This document shows positions 1 through 17,656 of a stretch of 22,067 nt of DNA, piece by piece (the stretch's first letter is position 1; the number at the start of each line of letters is the position of its first letter). Source of the DNA: a virus; IMG/VR virus record IMGVR_UViG_3300008448_000747, positions 1 to 22,067 of that record. One strand, given 5' to 3'. The position numbers were made by a program, and so were the translations under genes. Under the pieces are notes generated by a model. It made no database searches. It was not told the DNA's origin and worked only from the letters and a program-made list of their open reading frames with translations.

Positions 1-1
1 A

Positions 2-1009
2 GGTGCTACAGGGTCTGGTACTAATAGGATGTATATAGGATACTCCCCAGGAGCAGAAAATATATCTATTACAAGTAGCGGTGTAGTACGTTTAAATTCA
101 ATAACCTCAGGAAACGTACTTATAGGAACAACCACAGATGCTGGGTATAAGTTGGATGTAAATGGACAATTTAGGGCAACTGGGGAAACTGTTTTAGCAT
201 CAGCTAGTGGGAATGTTGGTATAGGAACGGTAAGTCCAACTTCTAAACTTCATATAAATGGAGCTGATCCATTTTTAAGAGTAAACAATGTTGGAAGTGC
301 TAATACACACGGAATAAAAATTAGTTATAATTCTTCTGATACTCAAGGATTTCACTTATTATATAATCCAGCTTTAGCGGTTGCTTATTTGGATAATACA
401 TACCTAGTTACCTCTGGACAACCTTATGGAGACATATACTTCAGGCAAAATGTTTCTGGTACCATGACTACCAGAATGACTATTAAGGCTGAAACAGGCA
501 ATATAGGTATAGGAACAACAACACCAACAGACAAACTACACATCGTAGACAACACCAATGGTAATAAGTTTGCAAGGATCAGTGCTGGTGGAAGTGATGC
601 GAGTGCTGCATGGGTTGCACAGAACGACCAGGTCGACAACGTAGTGTACCGTGTGTTCAGTTCTGGAGTTTCGGGGTCTCAGATGGGAATAGCGTTAGCA
701 CGCAGTGCATCGTTGATGGCCAACCTCGGAGGAAGCGGTAAGTTCTTGCTCGGAACATACTCCAACACCGACTTTGTGATGGGTACAGGTAACGCAGAGA
801 AGATGCGTATCGTAGACTCAACTGGTAACATACTCATTGCAACCACAACCGACCTAGGAAATAAACTAGAGGTAAACGGTGAAATAAACTCAACTGGATA
901 CAAAATAAACAATGTTTTAGGCTACACAGGCATCCTAAATATCCCAATGAATCCCCCTGGTCAGCAAAACGTTGATATACAGAGTGGAATTATCGTAAAT
1001 ATTTTCTAA
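2..1009 (+). CDS. Tail fibre / receptor-binding protein, 5' truncated
   Basis: C-terminal part of a phage tail-fibre-like protein. The frame is open to the left window edge, so the first ATG (29) is probably internal and the true start lies outside. Four degenerate repeats of the form G-N-(V/I)-x-I-G/A-T-x-x-x-x-x-K-L-x-(V/I)-N-G occur at about residues 28-47, 61-80, 157-175 and 266-290 counted from that ATG; such repeats are typical of beta-rich Bacteroidetes phage fibres. No intramolecular chaperone (peptidase S74-type) domain follows; the protein ends in a short unique tail. Base composition changes sharply inside the gene: bases 301-360 are 25% G+C by hand count and bases 601-660 are 55%, which suggests a mosaic of swapped segments. 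Function in host binding is inferred from family resemblance. Confidence 0.85.
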   Translation, partial: GATGSGTNRMYIGYSPGAENISITSSGVVRLNSITSGNVLIGTTTDAGYKLDVNGQFRATGETVLASASGNVGIGTVSPTSKLHINGADPFLRVNNVGSANTHGIKISYNSSDTQGFHLLYNPALAVAYLDNTYLVTSGQPYGDIYFRQNVSGTMTTRMTIKAETGNIGIGTTTPTDKLHIVDNTNGNKFARISAGGSDASAAWVAQNDQVDNVVYRVFSSGVSGSQMGIALARSASLMANLGGSGKFLLGTYSNTDFVMGTGNAEKMRIVDSTGNILIATTTDLGNKLEVNGEINSTGYKINNVLGYTGILNIPMNPPGQQNVDIQSGIIVNIF

Positions 1010-1584: not shown

Positions 1585-2811
1585 ATGAAACTCTCCCTTA
1601 GGGCATCAATATCACTGGGTGTGGCCATTCTGATAATGATGGTGTTCTTTGGGGTACAGAGTGCGGTTGTATTTGGATATTTCGAACCGTCATTATTAGT
1701 TATAGAATTTGGGTATGGTTGCATCATTGCTTTCATACCCTTTTTCTTTTTTACGCTCATTGAATTTGTTCGCAAAGCAAAATACAAATCGCAGTCTGTT
1801 GATGATACTTTAAAGGCAATCAACATATCAAACGCTTTGGTGGAGTTGGATTTGCAGGGCAATATTCTGAGTGCCAACAAAGTGTTTTGTGAAATTATTG
1901 GGTACTCGGTCTCAGAACTTAAAACGGTAAAACACCGACAACTCGTACCCGAAGTAAGCGACTACGATTACAAAATGTTTTGGAGAAACCTACAACTAGG
2001 TTACGCAAACTCTGGTGAGTTCCAAAGAATCAGTAAGAGCGGGGAAATTGTTTGGATATACGGTAATTATAACCCAATCAAAGATCCATACGGTGAGGTG
2101 TATCGCGTGATTAAGATTGCCTCAGACATTACTGACAAAAAGAAAATCGAAGCAGAGGTTGCCAAGAAAAACAGTTATCTGGAACACGCCGCCAAGATTC
2201 TACGTCACGACATGCATTCTGGAATCAACACCTACATCCCAAGGGGATTATCGTCGTTGAAGCGTCGCTTGAGCGAAGAGCAGATTAAAGAAATGCGTAT
2301 TGAAGGGCCGTTGAAGTTAATCGAAGAGGGATTGACACATACCCAAAAGGTTTACAAAGGCGTTAAAGAATTCACCAACTTGGTGAAAAAAGATGCACAA
2401 CTGGAGAAGACAGAGTGCAATTTGAAAGATATTTTGCAGTCTTATCTGTCATCTACTTCATATGAAAAACAAGTAGTTATCGATGAGATGCCTATTAAAT
2501 TGGTCAATGAAAGTTTATTCTGCACCGCCGTGGATAACTTGATTCGGAACGGCCTAAAATATAACGATTCGCCAACGAAGATCGTTCGTATCTTTGTTGA
2601 AAACGGTTACTTTGTGATACAGGACAATGGTCGAGGCATGTCACAGCAAGATTTCGCGCTGTGGTCTCAGCCTTACACCCGAAAGGAAGGACAGGAAGAA
2701 GCAGGATCGGGCCTAGGACTTAACATCTGTACTGCAATCATGGAAGAACATGGCTTCAAAATAGAAGTTGAAAAGTTACAAGTAGGCACAAAAATAAAAT
2801 TAAAGATATGA
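1585..2811 (+). CDS. Membrane-anchored PAS-domain sensor histidine kinase
   Basis: A hybrid-free sensor histidine kinase of 408 residues. Two hydrophobic segments (about 8-31 and 37-60) form an N-terminal hairpin with almost no periplasmic loop. A PAS domain follows (about 72-186, ending in the usual D-I-T-D-K-K-K linker), so sensing is probably cytoplasmic or intramembrane. The phosphoacceptor is H208 in LRHDMHSGIN. The ATP-binding domain shows an N box (VDNLIRNGLKY, 317-326), G1 box DNGRGM (347-352) and G2 box GSGLGL (374-379). All catalytic motifs look intact, so the enzyme should autophosphorylate and pass phosphate to a receiver. Its stop overlaps the start of the receiver gene by ATGA, which indicates translational coupling. 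A membrane histidine kinase inside a phage late region is unusual; its signal is unknown. Confidence 0.95.
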   Translation: MKLSLRASISLGVAILIMMVFFGVQSAVVFGYFEPSLLVIEFGYGCIIAFIPFFFFTLIEFVRKAKYKSQSVDDTLKAINISNALVELDLQGNILSANKVFCEIIGYSVSELKTVKHRQLVPEVSDYDYKMFWRNLQLGYANSGEFQRISKSGEIVWIYGNYNPIKDPYGEVYRVIKIASDITDKKKIEAEVAKKNSYLEHAAKILRHDMHSGINTYIPRGLSSLKRRLSEEQIKEMRIEGPLKLIEEGLTHTQKVYKGVKEFTNLVKKDAQLEKTECNLKDILQSYLSSTSYEKQVVIDEMPIKLVNESLFCTAVDNLIRNGLKYNDSPTKIVRIFVENGYFVIQDNGRGMSQQDFALWSQPYTRKEGQEEAGSGLGLNICTAIMEEHGFKIEVEKLQVGTKIKLKI

Positions 2812-3245
2812 TCGATTCTATATTACTGGTTGACGACGAGGACTTGTTCCATTTGGTGTTTGAAGATTCATGTTCATTATTGGACATCACGCTTTCTCTT
2901 CAGAGTTTGACTTCATCTGACGAGGCAGACCGCTTGTTCAAGAAGTGGTTCAACGAAGGCCCGGTAGAGGAAAGACCAGAGTGCGTATTTGTCGACCTTA
3001 ATATCATCGGCTCATCTTTTGACGGAATTGAGTTGATTAGAAAGATCAATACCGAGTATGGCAATGGTGTGGTGATAGGAATCATCTCGTCTTCTGACGA
3101 CAAGCAGGAGATTGAAAAGGCCAAAAAGGTGGGGGCTCAGTTCTGGATCATCAAGTCAGACGAAATCGAACCCCGTCTAGAGGCATTCCGTAACGACTAC
3201 GACGGATACAAAAACAAGACTGCTCCCTTTAAAGTGTACAAGTGA
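2808..3245 (+). CDS. Receiver-only response regulator
   Basis: A 145-residue stand-alone receiver (CheY-like) domain. It has the acidic pocket D9-D10-E11 in LLVDDED, the phosphoacceptor D63 in FVDLNI, the switch serines at 94-96 (IISSSDD) and the conserved lysine K116 (IIKS). There is no DNA-binding or enzymatic output domain; only a short C-terminal extension (residues 130-145) follows. It begins inside the stop of the kinase gene (ATGA) and ends inside the GTG start of the next gene (GTGA), so all three are probably translated together. Phosphate from the upstream kinase is the expected input. The output is probably by protein contact, like CheY or SpoIIAA-type switches; the partner is unknown but the following membrane proteins are the nearest candidates. 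Confidence 0.93.
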   Translation: MIDSILLVDDEDLFHLVFEDSCSLLDITLSLQSLTSSDEADRLFKKWFNEGPVEERPECVFVDLNIIGSSFDGIELIRKINTEYGNGVVIGIISSSDDKQEIEKAKKVGAQFWIIKSDEIEPRLEAFRNDYDGYKNKTAPFKVYK

Positions 3246-3790
3246 TAACCTTCAGCAAGGATACCTGTAATGAACTGATAGCGTTATACAAAACCAAAAA
3301 GATATCGCTAGAAGGAAATATCTTAAAAGTCATTAAGGGTGGAGATGCTGAGTTTTCAAAGTACATCGAGGAGGCAAAACAGCGGGACAACGATACTAGG
3401 CGGAAGCGATTAGAAATCACCAAGCAGGTCCAACAACAGAACAAAGATTTAACTGAGAGCCAGGCCGACAGGGACAAACTGATGGCTGAGTTACAGGTGT
3501 CTTTGGCGGAGTCAGAAAAACTAAAGAACGCGGCGGTTGAAGATTTAGAAACCCTACAGAAGCGAACTCAGTTTGAGTTGGTAGGATTGATTGTTAAGGT
3601 TGCATTAGGAGTAATCGGCACAGTTGCATTTTTGACATCTATTTTATACTTTTACGTCATATCTAAAGGATTGGATGCCAAGATCATAGAGAGCACTTGG
3701 TCAAATCTTTTTGGTATATTGCTGACGAATTCGTTTTCTATAATAGGAACAATCATGGGAGTTAAATACGCATCTGGTGAAAAGGGGTAG
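3242..3790 (+). CDS. Coiled-coil protein with two C-terminal membrane segments
   Basis: 182 residues starting at GTG, which overlaps the receiver's stop codon. Residues about 36-110 form a long charged, glutamine-rich helix that should be a coiled coil. Two hydrophobic segments follow at about 113-140 and 152-174, with a short loop carrying K, D and E, so both termini should face the cytoplasm. No catalytic motif is visible. The hairpin somewhat resembles small phage holins, but the long cytoplasmic coiled coil is not holin-like. Tight coupling with the kinase and receiver makes it a candidate effector or scaffold of the phosphorelay. Alternative: unrelated membrane moron sharing the operon. 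Function not assigned. Confidence 0.85.
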   Translation: MITFSKDTCNELIALYKTKKISLEGNILKVIKGGDAEFSKYIEEAKQRDNDTRRKRLEITKQVQQQNKDLTESQADRDKLMAELQVSLAESEKLKNAAVEDLETLQKRTQFELVGLIVKVALGVIGTVAFLTSILYFYVISKGLDAKIIESTWSNLFGILLTNSFSIIGTIMGVKYASGEKG

Positions 3791-4100
3791 TCAAGAGTGG
3801 ATAGACAGTATGAATCGTGCCTGCGATAGCCTTGTGGACATGATGCATGCGAGTCATGTTGAGGAGATGAATGAAATCGATGATGTGAGCGCGATGCAAT
3901 CCTCAACTGTAGAACCATTGGATACAGATGCTAACTGGTATATGGGGGCACAGAGTTATGTAGTGCCTGCATTTTTTGTGATCATGCTGACCTTATTTAT
4001 TTTTGGCACGATGACATTATTGGACACTCGCAAGGCAAATAAAAATAAACACAAGTTGAAAGTTTTGGATTTTTTGGAAGACGATAAACAATCAAAATAA
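3777..4100 (+). CDS. Small single-pass membrane protein
   Basis: 107 residues from a GTG start that lies 14 bases inside the previous gene. An acidic amphipathic N-terminal half (residues 1-55, with histidine and methionine clusters such as DMMHASHVEEM) precedes one hydrophobic segment at about 60-82 and a lysine-rich tail (KANKNKHKLK) followed by an acidic end. The positive residues after the membrane segment suggest a cytoplasmic C terminus and an exported N-terminal half (inference from the positive-inside rule). It closes the four-gene cassette; a new promoter-like box precedes the next gene. No family recognised. Confidence 0.75.
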   Translation: MKRGSQEWIDSMNRACDSLVDMMHASHVEEMNEIDDVSAMQSSTVEPLDTDANWYMGAQSYVVPAFFVIMLTLFIFGTMTLLDTRKANKNKHKLKVLDFLEDDKQSK

Positions 4101-5241: not shown

Positions 5242-5468
5242 TGTTAGGTTACACACTTACACCCGAAGAAAAGGATTTGATTCAAGGGCAGTATTACACG
5301 CCTTATCAATTTTTTAATTGCGTTCAAGACATTAACGGAACTTGGTTTTTGTTTCTTTCCGATGAAGACAAACCCGAAGTTGCAATAACCGAATACGCTT
5401 GGGTTTTAGATTTACCCGAAGCCGAATACATACCACCACCAGCACCGCCATTCCCACCTACTGAATAA
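5241..5468 (+). CDS. Small protein with proline-rich tail, 75 aa
   Basis: An acidic, aromatic-rich protein (LTPEEKDLIQGQYYTPYQFF near the start) ending in a proline-rich tail PPPAPPFPPTE. Start and stop are both shared with neighbours (TAATG before, TAATG after), so it is locked to the adhesin-like gene. It may be an accessory or chaperone for the adhesin. Small proteins in this position commonly accompany fibres, but no family is recognised. Confidence 0.75.
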   Translation: MLGYTLTPEEKDLIQGQYYTPYQFFNCVQDINGTWFLFLSDEDKPEVAITEYAWVLDLPEAEYIPPPAPPFPPTE

Positions 5469-5749
5469 TGACTGCTCCAAAGATAAAACCCAACGCGTTC
5501 CCGGTTTCATTTGATCAATTCAAGAAGAACCCAATTGCTGCTGTAGCATTTTGTATGCTAGTTGCTGTTTCATATTTGTACTACGATGTAAAGACTGGTT
5601 ATTCAGCGCAGATTGAGAATGCTAATGCAAAGATCACAGCGTTGGAAATAAAGGTAGATAGGATGAGTTCAGCATTAAAGAAATCTGACTCCGCCCTCGC
5701 TGCCGCCATTACTGAGTTGAGAATCATCAACACCGTCAAAAAGTTATGA
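5468..5749 (+). CDS. Membrane-anchored coiled-coil protein (possible inner-membrane spanin)
   Basis: 93 residues with an N-terminal cytoplasmic region, one hydrophobic segment (about 22-41, AAVAFCMLVAVSYLYY) and a helical, heptad-like region (about 47-90) predicted to lie in the periplasm. This is the topology of an i-spanin or a small phage membrane protein. The gene overlaps the next one, a secreted coiled-coil protein, by ATGA, so the two could work as a pair across the envelope. No lipobox is seen in the partner, so the classical Rz/Rz1 pairing is not proven. Confidence 0.7.
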   Translation: MTAPKIKPNAFPVSFDQFKKNPIAAVAFCMLVAVSYLYYDVKTGYSAQIENANAKITALEIKVDRMSSALKKSDSALAAAITELRIINTVKKL

Positions 5750-6206: not shown

Positions 6207-6455
6207 ATGAAAAAATTAATTGGATTTATTAGCGGTATGTTTACCGATGAAAAAGGTAAACCATCCTCTAAGAGATTCGTTGGAATCGTTGCTGGGTTGA
6301 TGTTATGCGTCACCATGTATGAAAACTCATTTACTGAGGCTCACTTTGCTCCTGCTGAATCATTGGTGAACGCTGTTGCTGCTTTGGCATTCGGTTGTTT
6401 GGGTTTGGCTAGTGCTGACAAATTCTTCGGAAAGAAGTCTGATGGCGAAGGATAA
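6207..6455 (+). CDS. Putative holin
   Basis: 82 residues. The N-terminal GMFTDEKGKPSSKRFVG motif precedes a hydrophobic segment (about 25-37) and a second near the C terminus (about 52-68, VNAVAALAFGCLGLAS), ending in a basic tail ADKFFGKK. The pair of short membrane segments, basic ends and the SSKRFVG motif resemble holins in Bacteroidetes phages. It follows a strong promoter match and starts the run of lysine-rich genes. A holin would form membrane lesions to release endolysin, but no endolysin is recognisable nearby. The next gene starts inside its last 14 bases. Confidence 0.7.
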   Translation: MKKLIGFISGMFTDEKGKPSSKRFVGIVAGLMLCVTMYENSFTEAHFAPAESLVNAVAALAFGCLGLASADKFFGKKSDGEG

Positions 6456-8478: not shown

Positions 8479-8819
8479 AAGACGCTTGCTACACTAAAGT
8501 CAAAGCAAAATATGCTGTATTCCCTTCTGCAAGGGCATCTCAAGCAATTGCCAAGTGTAGAAAATCATCTGGTACAGTACGAAAAACAAAGGCTGGTTCA
8601 GATTTAAAAAGATGGGGAGCAGAAAAATGGGTAGATACTAAAAGTGGCAAAGCCTGTGGAGCAGGTGGATCTAATGAGTATTGCCGCCCATCAAAAAGAG
8701 TATCATCAAAAACACCAGTTACAAAGTCTGAATTAAGCCCATCAAAACTCGCGGCAAAGAAAGCCGAGAAATCGAGAGTTGGAATGGGTAAAAGAGTTAC
8801 AAACGTAAAAAGAAAATGA
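8475..8819 (+). CDS. DUF5872-like basic protein, 114 aa
   Basis: Begins KDACYTKVKAKYAVFPSARAS, and later has GAEKWVDTKSGKACG and EYCRPSKRVSSKTP, blocks that I recall from the DUF5872 family of viral proteins. Four cysteines (C5, C28, and C60 and C69 in the second block) could bind zinc or remain free. The last 30 residues are lysine-rich. It closes the lysine-rich array and its TGA overlaps the start of a membrane miniprotein (ATGA). Function unknown; family name from memory, not searched. Confidence 0.75.
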   Translation: MKDACYTKVKAKYAVFPSARASQAIAKCRKSSGTVRKTKAGSDLKRWGAEKWVDTKSGKACGAGGSNEYCRPSKRVSSKTPVTKSELSPSKLAAKKAEKSRVGMGKRVTNVKRK

Positions 8820-8905
8820 CGGAAGGTTTTTTATTCGGGGTAATATTCTGTATCTTTTTGTGGCTTATGGGGTATGCTGTTGCTAGTTATAGACACAAAT
8901 CATGA
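8816..8905 (+). CDS. Single-pass membrane miniprotein, 29 aa
   Basis: One hydrophobic helix (about residues 4-23, FLFGVIFCIFLWLMGYAVAS) followed by RHKS. Both ends are ATGA overlaps, with the DUF5872-like gene before and the spanin-like gene after, so the reading frame is almost certainly translated. Next to envelope genes it may be a small holin, antiholin or pinholin-like peptide; this is speculative. Confidence 0.6.
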   Translation: MTEGFLFGVIFCIFLWLMGYAVASYRHKS

Positions 8906-9213
8906 AATTTATCACGCCAATTTTACTAGTGATTCTGATCGCTTTGCTGGGGTATCAGACTTTTGTAAAGGAAGAACCAGACACCAAGAGTGAAATACTA
9001 CACTTCTTGGATTCAATTGAAAAGCACAACGAAGTCGTATTCAGCAAAATAGATTCGCTAGACCGACTGAAGCACGAGGAATACAAAGTCTACGAACAAC
9101 TCAATTTAAAATATGACACGATTCAAATTGCTATTGACACTATGCCTGACATTGATGGCACAAAATATCTACTCACAATCAGTAGACAGCTTACCGCTAA
9201 AGGAGTTGAATAA
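8902..9213 (+). CDS. Putative inner-membrane spanin (i-spanin-like)
   Basis: 103 residues. A hydrophobic N-terminal helix (about 5-20, TPILLVILIALLGYQT) acts as a membrane anchor; the rest is charged and helical (about 27-80), matching the topology of an i-spanin with a periplasmic coiled coil. The next gene begins 101 bases before the stop, in the +1-relative frame (start ATG 9113), which is the overlapping layout of Rz/Rz1 pairs. Start overlaps the miniprotein's stop (ATGA). Spanins fuse the inner and outer membranes to finish lysis of Gram-negative hosts. Confidence 0.65.
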   Translation: MKFITPILLVILIALLGYQTFVKEEPDTKSEILHFLDSIEKHNEVVFSKIDSLDRLKHEEYKVYEQLNLKYDTIQIAIDTMPDIDGTKYLLTISRQLTAKGVE

Positions 9214-9463
9214 TGAATTCCTCAAAGGAATAAAGGCCCGGGAGCGTGTGGTAACTCTGAAGACCATCATTCAGTTGGACAGCCAGCAACTGAGTTTGTA
9301 CAAAGATACCATTGTTCCCAATTACAAAAAGGCATTGGATACCTGTAAGTATGAGATCGTTCGTTTGAACGGAGTCATTGATCGTAAGGACCAAGCCATG
9401 AAGTTTTACAAGTACGGGTTTATTGGAACCACTGTACTTTTTATTTTAAAATTAATTATTTGA
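9113..9463 (+). CDS. Putative secreted partner overlapping the spanin-like gene
   Basis: 116 residues with a signal-peptide-like N terminus (residues 1-22, ending ...AQNIYSQS), a charged helical middle (about 28-96), and a C-terminal hydrophobic segment (about 99-116). The first 33 codons lie in another frame inside the previous gene. The frame stays open and has a normal composition after the previous gene ends, and no alternative start exists after 9213, so the overlap is real. The N-terminal cysteine is not in a classical lipobox, and a C-terminal membrane segment is unusual for an o-spanin. It may be a variant spanin or a membrane protein with both ends anchored. Confidence 0.65.
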   Translation: MTRFKLLLTLCLTLMAQNIYSQSVDSLPLKELNNEFLKGIKARERVVTLKTIIQLDSQQLSLYKDTIVPNYKKALDTCKYEIVRLNGVIDRKDQAMKFYKYGFIGTTVLFILKLII

Positions 9464-10150: not shown

Positions 10151-11988
10151 TGGAGATCCTAACTAAGCAGAAGAGTTCGAAGTTCGTCTACGAGGATTGG
10201 GCGGCTAAACATTTGATTAGCCCACATGCTACTCGAAAAGAAAAGGACATCTGGTGGAACACCGAGATGGAATTCTGGCGTACTGGTAGGTTTGGATTGA
10301 CAGGTGCTCAGTACTTTTTTCTGAGTCAGGCTACAATCAAGGAAGCCACGGGTCTCAGAATCAAACCTATCTGGCGTGACTTGGACGATTTGATTTACCA
10401 ATCTTACGACGAAGCCCGAAATACATACTGGGATTTGATGGTTACCAAACGACGTGAGGCAGGTTTGTCTTTGACTTTTGGTGGGGTGATCCCTGTATGG
10501 ATATCACTGACCAATCCCGGGTCAACTTCTCTGCTAACATCCGCGGATAAAACGCGACTCGAGGAAATGTTTAAAGACAAGACTCGTGTAATCTATGATG
10601 GCTTGGATGATTACATCCGCCCTTCGGTTATTAGTACACGTCAGAGTGGTTATTTGCACATGGGGCAGTTAGATCAAAAGACAGGAGCAATCTCTGGTCT
10701 AGACTCAAAGATTATTACTCGTGACACAGTTGACAGCCCACAGTCATTGGAAGCGTTTCGTGCGATGCACATCTTTTTGGATGAGTTCTTTCTTCACCCA
10801 AAGGCAGACGTAGTGTATCGTTCGGCACAGGCGTCAACAAAGAAAGGATTTATGAAAGTGGCTCCTATTGTTATGGGAGGAAGTGCCGGGGAATCTTCGG
10901 TGATAGGTCAGAAGAAAGGAGCAGAACTTTGGCGGAATGCGGAAACTATTAAGATGCTCACAGTTTTCTTACCTGGATGGATGGGTATTACAGCGGCCCC
11001 AGAAATCGATTCAAAGGGTAAAGAAACAGGAAAGATAATTAACTTCTGTCCTAATGGATGGAGTGATGAAAAGATTGCTACGGAGTGGATTCTGAGAACC
11101 CGAGACAATTTAAATAAACTTGAGGATAAGAGTTTCTTGGATTCGTTCATCAAGCAGTATCCATTGGATATCCAAGAAGTATTTAGTGCCAATGCCAAGG
11201 GTGCTTTGCCTGCTGACGTGATGGCTAAACTTAACGAGCAGGAAAGAATTATTCTAGGAAGTCCCCCGCCAATTGAAAAGTGTAATCTATCGCGCGATGT
11301 AAACGAAAAGTTGCAGGTCACTCCGATTCAGAATGGCAAGATTTTGATTTTAGAGCGTTACAATCCGCTTCACAAATACATCTGTGGCATGGACCCGATT
11401 CCATTCGTTTCATCGAAGTTGAATGATGGGTCGGACAATTGCATTGTGGTTAAGAATATAGACACCAATCGATATGTAGCATTCTACAAAGAGCGCGCGC
11501 TGGACCCAGATATCATCATGCACAATAACATTTTACTTCAAGATTATTATGGTAAGGCAAAAGTGATGATTGAAGTCAACCGGGGAGGGGTAATTCTAGA
11601 TCACTACAAACAGCGTAATAGACTCGATCTTTTGGCTCCTAGACCATCACTACTGGGAAAGGTTTTTATTAGCGGAGAGCGAACCTTTGGTTGGTATAAG
11701 AACGACCATACGGGGGAGAGAGCCAACTCTTATATTATTGATTACTTCAGAAAGTACTGGGACTCAGTTTACTTCATGGATATTATTGAAGAGGCCAAAC
11801 TTTACCTTGTAGATAACACGGATATCGTGGATGCAATGGTCTCCGCAGAAATCTATCACCGCCAGATCATTGAAAAAGGTAAACGGGATACTGGACCAGA
11901 GTTAGAGGTCAAGAAAATCCCGTTCATAGAAATGGTAGACGGCCGGGCGGTCAGAGTATGGAAAGAGATTCGTGTGGAACGACAGTAG
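10150..11988 (+). CDS. terL: Terminase large subunit
   Basis: 612 residues, two domains. The ATPase has a degenerate Walker A at about 100-107 (KRREAGLS) and a Walker B at about 206-212 (MHIFLDE, D211 and E212). The nuclease domain has acids at D415 (ICGMDP), E475 (MIEVN) and D561 (DIVDAM), the usual metal-binding set. It packages DNA into the prohead and cuts concatemers. It is the last gene of the plus-strand run and ends head-on against the minus-strand gene, with a 38-base overlap of the two 3' ends. The length is normal for the family. Confidence 0.95.
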   Translation: MEILTKQKSSKFVYEDWAAKHLISPHATRKEKDIWWNTEMEFWRTGRFGLTGAQYFFLSQATIKEATGLRIKPIWRDLDDLIYQSYDEARNTYWDLMVTKRREAGLSLTFGGVIPVWISLTNPGSTSLLTSADKTRLEEMFKDKTRVIYDGLDDYIRPSVISTRQSGYLHMGQLDQKTGAISGLDSKIITRDTVDSPQSLEAFRAMHIFLDEFFLHPKADVVYRSAQASTKKGFMKVAPIVMGGSAGESSVIGQKKGAELWRNAETIKMLTVFLPGWMGITAAPEIDSKGKETGKIINFCPNGWSDEKIATEWILRTRDNLNKLEDKSFLDSFIKQYPLDIQEVFSANAKGALPADVMAKLNEQERIILGSPPPIEKCNLSRDVNEKLQVTPIQNGKILILERYNPLHKYICGMDPIPFVSSKLNDGSDNCIVVKNIDTNRYVAFYKERALDPDIIMHNNILLQDYYGKAKVMIEVNRGGVILDHYKQRNRLDLLAPRPSLLGKVFISGERTFGWYKNDHTGERANSYIIDYFRKYWDSVYFMDIIEEAKLYLVDNTDIVDAMVSAEIYHRQIIEKGKRDTGPELEVKKIPFIEMVDGRAVRVWKEIRVERQ

Positions 11989-12466
11989 TCATAATTTCCT
12001 CTTTTAACCTTCCGTAAACTTTAGCATATTGTTTTGAGGAGTGCATGAAATTTTCATGCTGGTTACAAGAGTGAATCACTGTGCTATGGTCCTTTCTAAA
12101 TATTGTTCCAATCTTTTCGTAGGTGTAGTGTAATTCGCGCCGCATATAATACATTACATGTCTTCGGCAATCAACGAACTCCCCTTTTCTGGTGTTGCCG
12201 CAAAAATCCATGATGGTGATACTATGAATAATGCACGCACAATCGATGATCTGTTTGTCCAGAGTCTTTAAAACATTGTAGGTGATGACCATGCTAGGTC
12301 GCTTCGCTTTACCAGTGATGGGGTTTAACGTACGGTTTTTGTACTTTAGATACAAATGATTTTTATTAATCGCGCGAACGATGCGGTTTGTTTCTAAGGA
12401 GTCTAGGTCAAGTTGTTTGACCACTAATTCCAATATTTCAGCGGTAAATTCTGCTACAGTAGGCAT
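11951..12466 (-). CDS. Stand-alone DnaA domain IV-like DNA-binding protein
   Basis: 171 residues. The C-terminal part (about 96-145) matches DnaA domain IV: CRRHVMYYMRRELHYTYEKIG, then the signature DHSTVIHSC. There is no AAA+ domain; the first 95 residues (basic, KAKRPSMVITYNVLK) are of no known family. It probably binds DnaA-box-like sites at the phage origin or blocks the host initiator. Located directly after the polymerase gene in the replication operon. It overlaps the terminase 3' end by 38 bases. Confidence 0.85.
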   Translation of the reverse strand: MPTVAEFTAEILELVVKQLDLDSLETNRIVRAINKNHLYLKYKNRTLNPITGKAKRPSMVITYNVLKTLDKQIIDCACIIHSITIMDFCGNTRKGEFVDCRRHVMYYMRRELHYTYEKIGTIFRKDHSTVIHSCNQHENFMHSSKQYAKVYGRLKEEIMTTVVPHESLSIL

Positions 12467-16591: not shown

Positions 16592-16929
16592 TGTATGATT
16601 TTTAGTTTTAGTTTTTGTTTCAATAGTGGTTTGTAGTTTAGTCCGCTTTCCACAATATCGATTTGTGAAGAAGACAGCAAATCTAAGTGCGGAGATTCAA
16701 TAATGCCAACAAATTCTAAATTATCCACAATGTCGCACCAATTTAATTTCTTAACATAGTCGATAAGCCCCAGCAAATCCACGCGCGGTATTTTGCTTGT
16801 GTAGGGCATTTCTTTATTGTATAAGAATCTGTTACGATGTTCATACACGTATTTGATCGGTATGTCAAAGACAAACCCGTTTTGTGTATAAATTCTAAAA
16901 TTTACGGGGATTTCATATGAATTGGTCAT
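16588..16929 (-). CDS. Hypothetical protein, 113 aa
   Basis: Not recognised. A soluble protein with N-terminal beta-rich part (YEIPVNFRIYTQNGFVFDIP), a middle with many R, K and D, and a C-terminal lysine/leucine stretch (LLKQKLKLKIIQ). It overlaps the recombinase 3' end by 17 bases and the next gene by ATGA, so it is firmly in the same transcript. It does not contain a zinc ribbon and so is not a displaced recombinase tail. Confidence 0.65.
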   Translation of the reverse strand: MTNSYEIPVNFRIYTQNGFVFDIPIKYVYEHRNRFLYNKEMPYTSKIPRVDLLGLIDYVKKLNWCDIVDNLEFVGIIESPHLDLLSSSQIDIVESGLNYKPLLKQKLKLKIIQ

Positions 16930-17656
16930 AGATGTTGTTGTTTACAATTTTGATGATAGTGGAATGGTGAAATTGCTTGCCTGTCTTTGAGGTAATACCA
17001 TCTTTATTCAAGTGTCTGGCGATTTCGCTGTATTTCATTTGCTTCTTACAGGTAAATATTTTACGGACAATTTTCATTTCGCTTTCATTTACCACCAGAT
17101 TGCCATCGTTCTTATCAAAACCAAATGGTACGGGTCCGCAATAGACTTTGTTTTCTTTCTTGAGATACTTCATCACCGAAGAAATGAGTTCGCCTCTTTG
17201 GTTTGATTCAAACTCAGCAAACGCCGCGATCATTTGAAGCATTAATTTACCATGGCTGGTAGAAGTATCAAATTGAAAGTCCAGCGTATAAAACGACACC
17301 CCGAAGTTTTCTAAGAATGCTACCCATTTCAAAGTGTCTTTGGTGTTTCTACCAAAACGAGACAGGCTGTAAACAACTACGACGTCTACTTCTTTTCTTT
17401 TGACCATGTCAATCATCTTCATGAAGTCTGGGCGGTTCTCAAACTTTCTGCCTGAGACCCCCGGATCTGAAAATGTTGCTACAATTTCGTAGTTATTTAG
17501 TTTGCAGAACGCTTCGATGCGGTCCTCTTGGTTGTCTAACGACGAACCATCTTCTACTTGATTTTCATGAGAGACTCTCGTATAATAAACGGCTCTCTTC
17601 TTCGGTGAATGGTCCTTCTGTGGTAGTCTTTCGTTCGGGTACGGATTCGATTTCAT
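16913..17656 (-). CDS. Serine recombinase (short integrase/resolvase type)
   Basis: 247 residues. The resolvase catalytic domain has R27 and nucleophile S29 in YYTRVSHENQ, R100 and R103 in SLSRFGRN, and R154 in EFESNQRGE. A short recombinase (PF07508-like) part follows (about 174-247, PVPFGFDKNDG ... NNNIYD). The zinc ribbon and coiled-coil domain of large serine integrases are missing; the chain stops just after the first DNA-binding part. It may act as a phage integrase, resolvase or inverter. The start region overlaps the upstream gene by 92 bases and the overlap includes S29, which is unusual. Confidence 0.88.
   Translation of the reverse strand: MKSNPYPNERLPQKDHSPKKRAVYYTRVSHENQVEDGSSLDNQEDRIEAFCKLNNYEIVATFSDPGVSGRKFENRPDFMKMIDMVKRKEVDVVVVYSLSRFGRNTKDTLKWVAFLENFGVSFYTLDFQFDTSTSHGKLMLQMIAAFAEFESNQRGELISSVMKYLKKENKVYCGPVPFGFDKNDGNLVVNESEMKIVRKIFTCKKQMKYSEIARHLNKDGITSKTGKQFHHSTIIKIVNNNIYDQFI

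Follow-up and report, generated by a model that had tools for sequence, protein, structure and literature searches.

In most accounts phages act on the two-component signalling systems of their hosts and do not carry complete systems of their own, and the holin/antiholin clocks that time phage lysis, as in T4 lysis inhibition, are not known to include a phosphorelay. The locus analysed here lies in the viral record IMGVR_UViG_3300008448_000747 of IMG/VR, the whole of which (22,067 bases) is referred to as the window, and consists of the genes for a histidine kinase, a single-domain response regulator and a small membrane protein with a long coiled coil, the last being designated CC and the three genes the trio. 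The trio resembles canonical two-component systems in the H, N, G1 and G2 motifs of its kinase, the D, D and K residues of its receiver and its adjacent, overlapping genes, and differs from them in being phage-borne, in having a third, membrane-protein gene in all testable loci, in the lack of an output domain on the receiver and in a kinase that the Pfam HisKA model does not match.

In its mode of action the trio would work most like receiver-docking systems, such as that in which the single-domain receiver DivK acts by docking on the pseudokinase DivL (on which see PMC9430884 and PMC5361649), the likeness being one of described action and implying no membership. Both have a stand-alone receiver, and the presumed target in one relative of the trio, locus L090, carries a kinase domain, whereas the presumed target in the trio itself is a membrane hairpin protein of the same operon. 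Rcp1-type phytochrome regulators (PDB 1i3c) give the best fold match to the receiver model and are of similar length, but the identity is 18 %, the model is of low confidence and no phytochrome was seen in the trio. Holin/antiholin clocks such as T4 lysis inhibition (PMC6832632) would share with the trio membrane-acting control of lysis on a cue, if the lysis reading given below is right, and differ in that the hairpin of the trio matches no holin family. Histidine kinase genes are also described in phage genomes as part of a pelagiphage curli (type VIII secretion system) cluster (PMC9599517), in which the kinase is linked to curli genes. This was the nearest case met in the open-access literature searched, the titles and abstract openings of which had nothing on a cassette of the present kind, as was true of the passages of PMC6359870.

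Genes and proteins of the cassette

The trio is interpreted, with a probability of about 0.6, as a self-contained phage signalling cassette in which a signal would pass from kinase to receiver and on to the CC hairpin and the membrane. Its genes and predicted sites, with one accessory gene, are as follows.

1585..2811, + strand: histidine kinase, 408 amino acids, with two N-terminal membrane segments, a PAS domain, a divergent H box (H208 in RHDMHSG) and N, G1 and G2 boxes (Pfam, motifs, hydropathy, alignment)
2206..2208, + strand: codon of the predicted phosphoacceptor H208, invariant in 17/17 aligned kinases
2808..3245, + strand: single-domain response regulator, 145 amino acids, with D9, D10, D63 and K116 and no output domain (Pfam, alignment, fold search)
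2994..2996, + strand: codon for D63, the residue predicted to accept the phosphoryl group in the receiver (alignments)
3242..3790, + strand: third protein, CC, 182 amino acids, with an N-terminal domain (about residues 1-45), a long coiled coil, a two-segment membrane hairpin (113-174) and GTIMGVK near the hairpin end (alignment, model, hydropathy)
3578..3763, + strand: CC membrane hairpin, many residues of W153-K175 being at least 96 % identical over 158 trios
3777..4100, + strand: accessory single-pass membrane protein, 107 amino acids, one segment (62-80), with a 14-base overlap with the third gene

The four open reading frames (ORFs) are as an earlier, sequence-only reading of the window had given them, with junctions ATGA at 2808-2811 and GTGA at 3242-3245 and the 14-base overlap at 3777-3790, and the phosphotransfer residues it had listed (H208 and the N, G1 and G2 boxes of the kinase; D9, D10, D63 and K116 of the receiver) were all confirmed. 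The kinase has its membrane segments at residues 11-29 and 33-51 by hydropathy, matches PAS_3 (E 4.4e-12) and HATPase_c (E 3.7e-14) of Pfam, and places its N box at 317, G1 at 347 and G2 at 374. HisKA remained unmatched in Pfam at E values up to 1, so that the phosphoacceptor helix is of a divergent type; not all kinase subfamilies match this single model. The best PDB matches of the PAS domain were 3ewk (E 4.6e-25) and 8dik (E 8.4e-15), which gives it sequence kinship with the flavin adenine dinucleotide-binding PAS sensors Aer and MmoS. A flavin sensor was considered, but the flavin-site Trp and Asn of the WxG...NRR stretch appear not to be kept, the domain reading NSGEFQRISK there by eye.

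The sole significant Pfam match of the receiver was Response_reg (34.1 bits against a cut-off of 30.2, residues 5-117). Its residues D9, D10, D63 and K116 are invariant in 12 aligned relatives and at least 98 % conserved over the 158 trios, in which 62 of the 145 receiver positions are at least 98 % identical. The top fold match of the receiver model (predicted local distance difference test score, pLDDT, 65) was the single-domain receiver Rcp1 at E 2.4e-4. By anatomy, kinase and receiver are a predicted two-component system with a single-domain receiver.

The membrane segments of CC were placed at residues 113-131 and 156-174, the second having conserved small and polar residues over the 158 trios, and in the predicted model (pLDDT 79, predicted template modelling score 0.33) the helix of residues 36-142 runs unbroken from the coil into the first membrane segment. 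A fold search with this model over predicted viral structures gave one match at E < 0.001, A0A6J5PRT3, an uncharacterised protein of an uncultured phage that is 44 % identical to CC.

Recurrence, linkage and constraint

Seed scans of IMG/VR, in which one contig may hold several matched stretches, gave 392 stretches with a receiver relative, of which 80 were kept at 82-100 % identity, at least 527 with a relative of CC and at least 590 with a relative of the kinase core of L090. Hundreds of matched viral stretches carry these genes, which excludes chance. A first set of loci, deduplicated and including two metagenome-assembled genome (MAG) records, L089 and L090, bore out the recurrence of gene order that the sequence-only reading had proposed as a check, kinase, receiver and CC genes standing in this order on one strand in 75/75 loci that had 1.3 kb of flank to either side of the receiver (L090 counted). 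A second set was fetched with the L089 receiver and the L090 kinase core so as to lessen the ascertainment of near relatives, and held 133 loci, or 98 after deduplication. All of the kinase loci with 2.5 kb downstream (87/87) carried receiver and CC genes on the same strand, a count that covers presence and strand, order across both sets having been assessed on the loci that passed motif filters (158 distinct trios). A kinase was likewise present for 85/85 receivers with 2.5 kb upstream and CC for 88/88 with 1.5 kb downstream, and among the CC ORFs found downstream none was without a GTIMGVK-type stretch. The two sets overlap in part, at least 14 of the 133 second-set loci lying on contigs already represented, and loci of one lineage are not independent; a fragment without a receiver (L118), short-flank loci and identical nucleotide duplicates were left out. 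The trio is an obligate unit in the loci tested, and the presence of CC in 75/75 and 87/87 testable loci strongly supports the proposal that the window carries a two-component cassette dedicated to the phage, with a membrane protein encoded alongside.

Across the 158 trios the kinase and receiver genes overlap or lie within 10 bases of each other in 122, and the receiver and CC genes in 146, the latter junction being at -4 or -1 in 124. The gene for the 107-amino-acid protein is less constant: of the 100 clustered loci its cluster is present in 25 and that of CC in 94, so that it is regarded as accessory, and it is confined to near relatives and otherwise a looser family. A unit of four genes was rejected on this ground. 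The pattern that had been named beforehand as speaking against the proposal, namely kinase and receiver recurring always without the membrane genes, was thus not seen for CC and was seen in part for the 107-amino-acid protein.

A gene-by-gene comparison took in eight long carrier contigs of 41-155 kb, whether or not complete, with E 1e-5 and half coverage as thresholds for a shared protein. The trio was common to all 28 contig pairs and made up the only shared proteins in 14 of these, the other pairs sharing 4 to 16. In seven of the contigs (21 pairs, G006 being left out of the codon comparison) the receiver proteins keep an identity of 67-94 %, although their genes differ at 50-87 % of the fourfold sites compared. 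Pairs with no other homology, together with a protein that stays constant over diverged fourfold sites, fit a mobile cassette that has long been exchanged between phages under strong selection at the protein level. Carrier records are up to 297,894 bases long. Of 594 long ORFs in the eight contigs, 33 have a Shine-Dalgarno-like 4-mer ahead of them, which, from established knowledge, fits hosts of the Bacteroidota type.

That the trio might be bacterial genes caught by chance, as cargo or contamination with no phage role, would agree with the commonness of kinases and receivers in bacteria and with the one relative on a Bacteroidetes MAG contig, but it is most improbable. A seed scan of 84,980 species genomes gave 65 matched stretches and 2 relatives, L089 and L090, and the L089 contig carries a terminase (PF03237). 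Profiles of CC over 395 genomes of the phylum of L090 and of its N-terminal domain over 291 genomes of the order, sets that overlap, matched the genome of L090 (G031) alone, and in the hundreds of matched viral stretches residues and order are intact. Distant bacterial relatives could be missed, as the scan used two peptide seeds; within the genomes covered, the trio is rare in bacteria. In a collection of 50,697 phage records nothing matched the receiver at E 0.01, whereas 14 records had weak matches to the kinase, and of three of these that were opened MW462191 was bacterial-looking by its neighbours and two were unannotated. Host contamination of the window itself was ruled out, since positions 237-22067 recur at 99.99 % identity in the interior of a viral contig of 67,969 bases and a terminase (E 7.2e-12), a DNA polymerase and a primase-helicase were identified by PHROG; the terminase had no match in Pfam and NCBIfam. 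The left end of the window (1-236) is without a match to this contig and is either a fibre-gene variant or a join made in assembly.

The L090 contig, judged from its ORFs, carries ordinary chromosomal genes. In it a kinase with three PAS domains, a receiver 70 % identical to that of the window and a third gene stand in the same order with overlaps of 4 and 1 bases. The third protein keeps the N-terminal domain and coil of CC (39 % identical to the window protein and 28-42 % over 11 relatives), but the place of the phage hairpin is taken by a HisKA-like helix, at 25.4 bits just short of the cut-off of 26.9, and by HATPase_c (E 5e-20); of the 88 CC matches in the first set it alone departs in this way. 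The simplest reading of this swap is that the N-terminal domain takes the signal of the receiver and that the C-terminal part is an exchangeable output.

Proposed signalling chain and its sensors

A membrane or cytosolic cue would be read by the kinase through a replaceable sensor, after which the kinase would phosphorylate itself at H208 and pass the phosphoryl group to D63 of its private receiver, two steps suggested by the intact residues and the invariant pairing. The receiver would then dock on the N-terminal domain of CC and alter the coiled coil, as its lack of an output domain and the output swap of L090 suggest, and the coil would shift the two-segment hairpin and so bring about a change in the inner membrane or in a membrane partner, as suggested by the predicted hairpin and by the helix that is continuous with the coil in the model. 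As far as the docking step, this chain is considered likely.

The same data bear on the idea that the receiver rewires the host, as a phospho-sink or docking protein on host signalling, with CC serving merely as its anchor. A receiver conserved between phages of little other homology would fit a conserved host partner, and one phage protein with an effect on two-component systems of the host has been described (PMC10714779); the kinase and CC are nevertheless present in all testable loci and the L090 swap points to CC as the target, and this explanation is held to be quite unlikely.

The front of the kinase, its presumed sensor, is replaceable and comprises two membrane segments and a PAS domain in the window, GAF and PAS domains in L079, no PAS in L141 and two PAS domains, by eye, in L157. 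Genes are also inserted in the operon. A YceI-like gene stands between kinase and receiver in L079 (5468-5992) and L129 (7025-7552), the latter matching PF04264 at E 5.2e-43 and the former belonging to the same cluster, and multi-segment proteins, read from their sequences, lie between receiver and CC in some loci. Two IMG/VR contigs have a microbial rhodopsin gene within the trio operon (PF01036, E 1.2e-13 and 3.7e-14), the two proteins being 84 % identical.

L125, 7393-7974 (IMGVR_UViG_3300025879_001431, 32.7 kb): rhodopsin gene, PF01036
L342, 3001-3579 (IMGVR_UViG_3300048121_001678, 297 kb): rhodopsin gene, PF01036

The rhodopsins have RY(M/L)DWTFT and DLTAK stretches, and the retinal-lysine region is present by eye. 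The 32.7-kb contig has phage-like genes by eye, and the term phage rhodopsin was not met in the titles and abstract openings from a literature search on rhodopsins of phages and viruses. The inserted genes suggest an input related to the membrane or to energy. In L141, on a contig of 236,652 bases, two kinase-cluster genes stand ahead of one receiver, and L223, L237, L226, L240, L245 and L258 have an extra motif-bearing ORF upstream.

Lysis context and possible role in infection

In the near set, where the gene family was read from one or two representatives per cluster, the neighbours in the 100 clustered loci included a holin (Phage_holin_4_1, PF05105) in 26, a lysin-like PHROG in 26, an amidase endolysin in 13 and a phage lysozyme in 5, and lysozyme of family GH24 and a GH19 lysin were among the neighbours seen. 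A lysis gene lies within 5 kb of the receiver in 54/103 near-set loci and in 21/46 that are well flanked, the background for a random position in the eight long contigs being about 0.11 within 4 kb. One Pfam holin model matched in 5/32 records. In L157 a peptidoglycan-binding lysin-like gene, a Phage_holin_4_1 gene and the trio abut or overlap, and the phage of the window has a lysin-like gene about 5 kb upstream of the kinase. For this phage and its nearer relatives the likeliest purpose of the chain would be to set or hold the moment of lysis, which is put forward as a tentative proposal at somewhat below even odds.

Several results weigh against the proposed chain and its link to lysis. The output swap was seen on one MAG contig, and the distance correlations among the three proteins were about 0.6 in the 158 trios and uninformative on coevolution. 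Neither CC nor its hairpin matched a holin family in Pfam, PHROGs or NCBIfam, and the best PDB match of the CC model had an E value of 9.5, so that no significant fold match was obtained there. In the distant set a reference lysin or holin lay within about 4 kb in 7/34 well-flanked loci against about 0.11 expected (one-sided p 0.07). The 142 neighbours in 20 of the 27 distant loci without a reference match were heterogeneous, with at most 2 per Pfam family and 3 per PHROG family, and no endolysin or holin was among the 25 commonest families of either tally, in loci that had been chosen for lacking reference matches. On the 155-kb contig G009 some 22 kb separate the kinase gene from the closest lysin-like match.

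As a statement on the trio in general, membership of a lysis cassette was accordingly rejected, lysis genes seldom adjoining the trio in distant carriers. Lysis genes can be scattered in large phages, and the lysis reference sequences were mostly from the near set, so that other lysins of distant phages would be missed; the lysis reading is for these reasons weakened and not refuted. Lysis timing, which the sequence-only reading had offered as one possible role, is thus compatible with gene context in the relatives of the window and unsupported by context in the distant carriers.

CC might itself be a two-segment holin gated by the receiver, the trio then being a signal-triggered holin. It is small, with two membrane segments of inferred topology and conserved small and polar residues in the second, and many near loci have lysis neighbours, yet a long coil precedes the segments. 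The separate Phage_holin_4_1 gene that adjoins the trio in L157, of a cluster present in 26 near loci, the want of a holin-family match for CC and the absence of a reference lysis gene near the trio in most distant carriers make this a distinctly unlikely reading.

If the trio responds to superinfection or to a rival phage, it would be carried much as a moron is, and its hairpin would block entry or kill the membrane once the kinase senses disturbance of the envelope by a second phage. The trio is autonomous while its neighbours change, both the sensor and CC have membrane segments, and a fibre-like gene adjoins the cassette in the window (PHROG tail fibre, E 2.3e-8). The downstream neighbour, a protein of 280 amino acids, had matches restricted to PHROG families of unknown function, and of the location between fibre/adhesin genes that had been claimed for the cassette only the upstream side therefore stands. 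No direct evidence for superinfection response was found; PADLOC-DB held no match for the kinase, the receiver or the 107-amino-acid protein and one weak coiled-coil match for CC (E 0.0045), and the strict conservation of the receiver is unlike that of typical defence genes, which evolve fast. This role is considered unlikely.

Apart from lysis timing in the nearer relatives, the self-contained signalling cassette may serve more widely as an infection-stage device of mid-size to jumbo tailed phages of Bacteroidota-like hosts, in which interchangeable sensors, from PAS and GAF domains to bare membrane segments and, in two viral contigs, a rhodopsin of the operon, feed one strongly constrained receiver that gates a phage-specific membrane hairpin. 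The circuit would be met seldom or never in bacteria, a related bacterial version having a kinase in the place of the membrane output; this generalisation, too, is possible and falls short of probable.

Two small membrane proteins are encoded downstream of the cassette in the window.

5468..5749, + strand: small single-pass protein, its only matches being weak ones to Rz-like spanins (E 0.06-0.09; E 0.03 for the relative in L093)
6207..6455, + strand: small membrane protein, likened to a holin on size and position alone, a 47 % identical relative of the cluster-6 protein with one segment over threshold, about 2.4 kb downstream of CC

The second of these had no family match and no PHROG match. 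The small overlapping genes at 8902-9213 and 9113-9463 are arranged like a nested inner/outer spanin pair, the arrangement being the sole likeness, and had no PHROG match; the cluster of the 9113-9463 protein sits immediately upstream of the kinase in other phages. In one lineage, as in L115, an Endonuclease_NS gene (8664-9296, E 8e-24) stands directly downstream of the cassette, and its cluster occurs in 10 loci. On the minus strand of the window, 16913-17656 encodes the N-terminus of a large serine recombinase, of 247 amino acids only (Resolvase, E 5.3e-40; PHROG integrase, E 1.6e-75), a fragment that possibly reflects a temperate past or a truncated gene, and 11951-12466 encodes a stand-alone DnaA C-terminal-like protein (NCBIfam, E 7.5e-14, below the cut-off) that adjoins the DNA polymerase gene.

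The trio is the sole homology in many pairs of long contigs and its receiver is nearly constant over diverged silent sites, and it must on these grounds serve something important in infection. Its presence suggests that in the course of infection these viruses respond at the cell membrane to something that they sense, with CC as a candidate new family of membrane-output proteins, and it opens to testing the way in which such phages read their conditions and time their actions.

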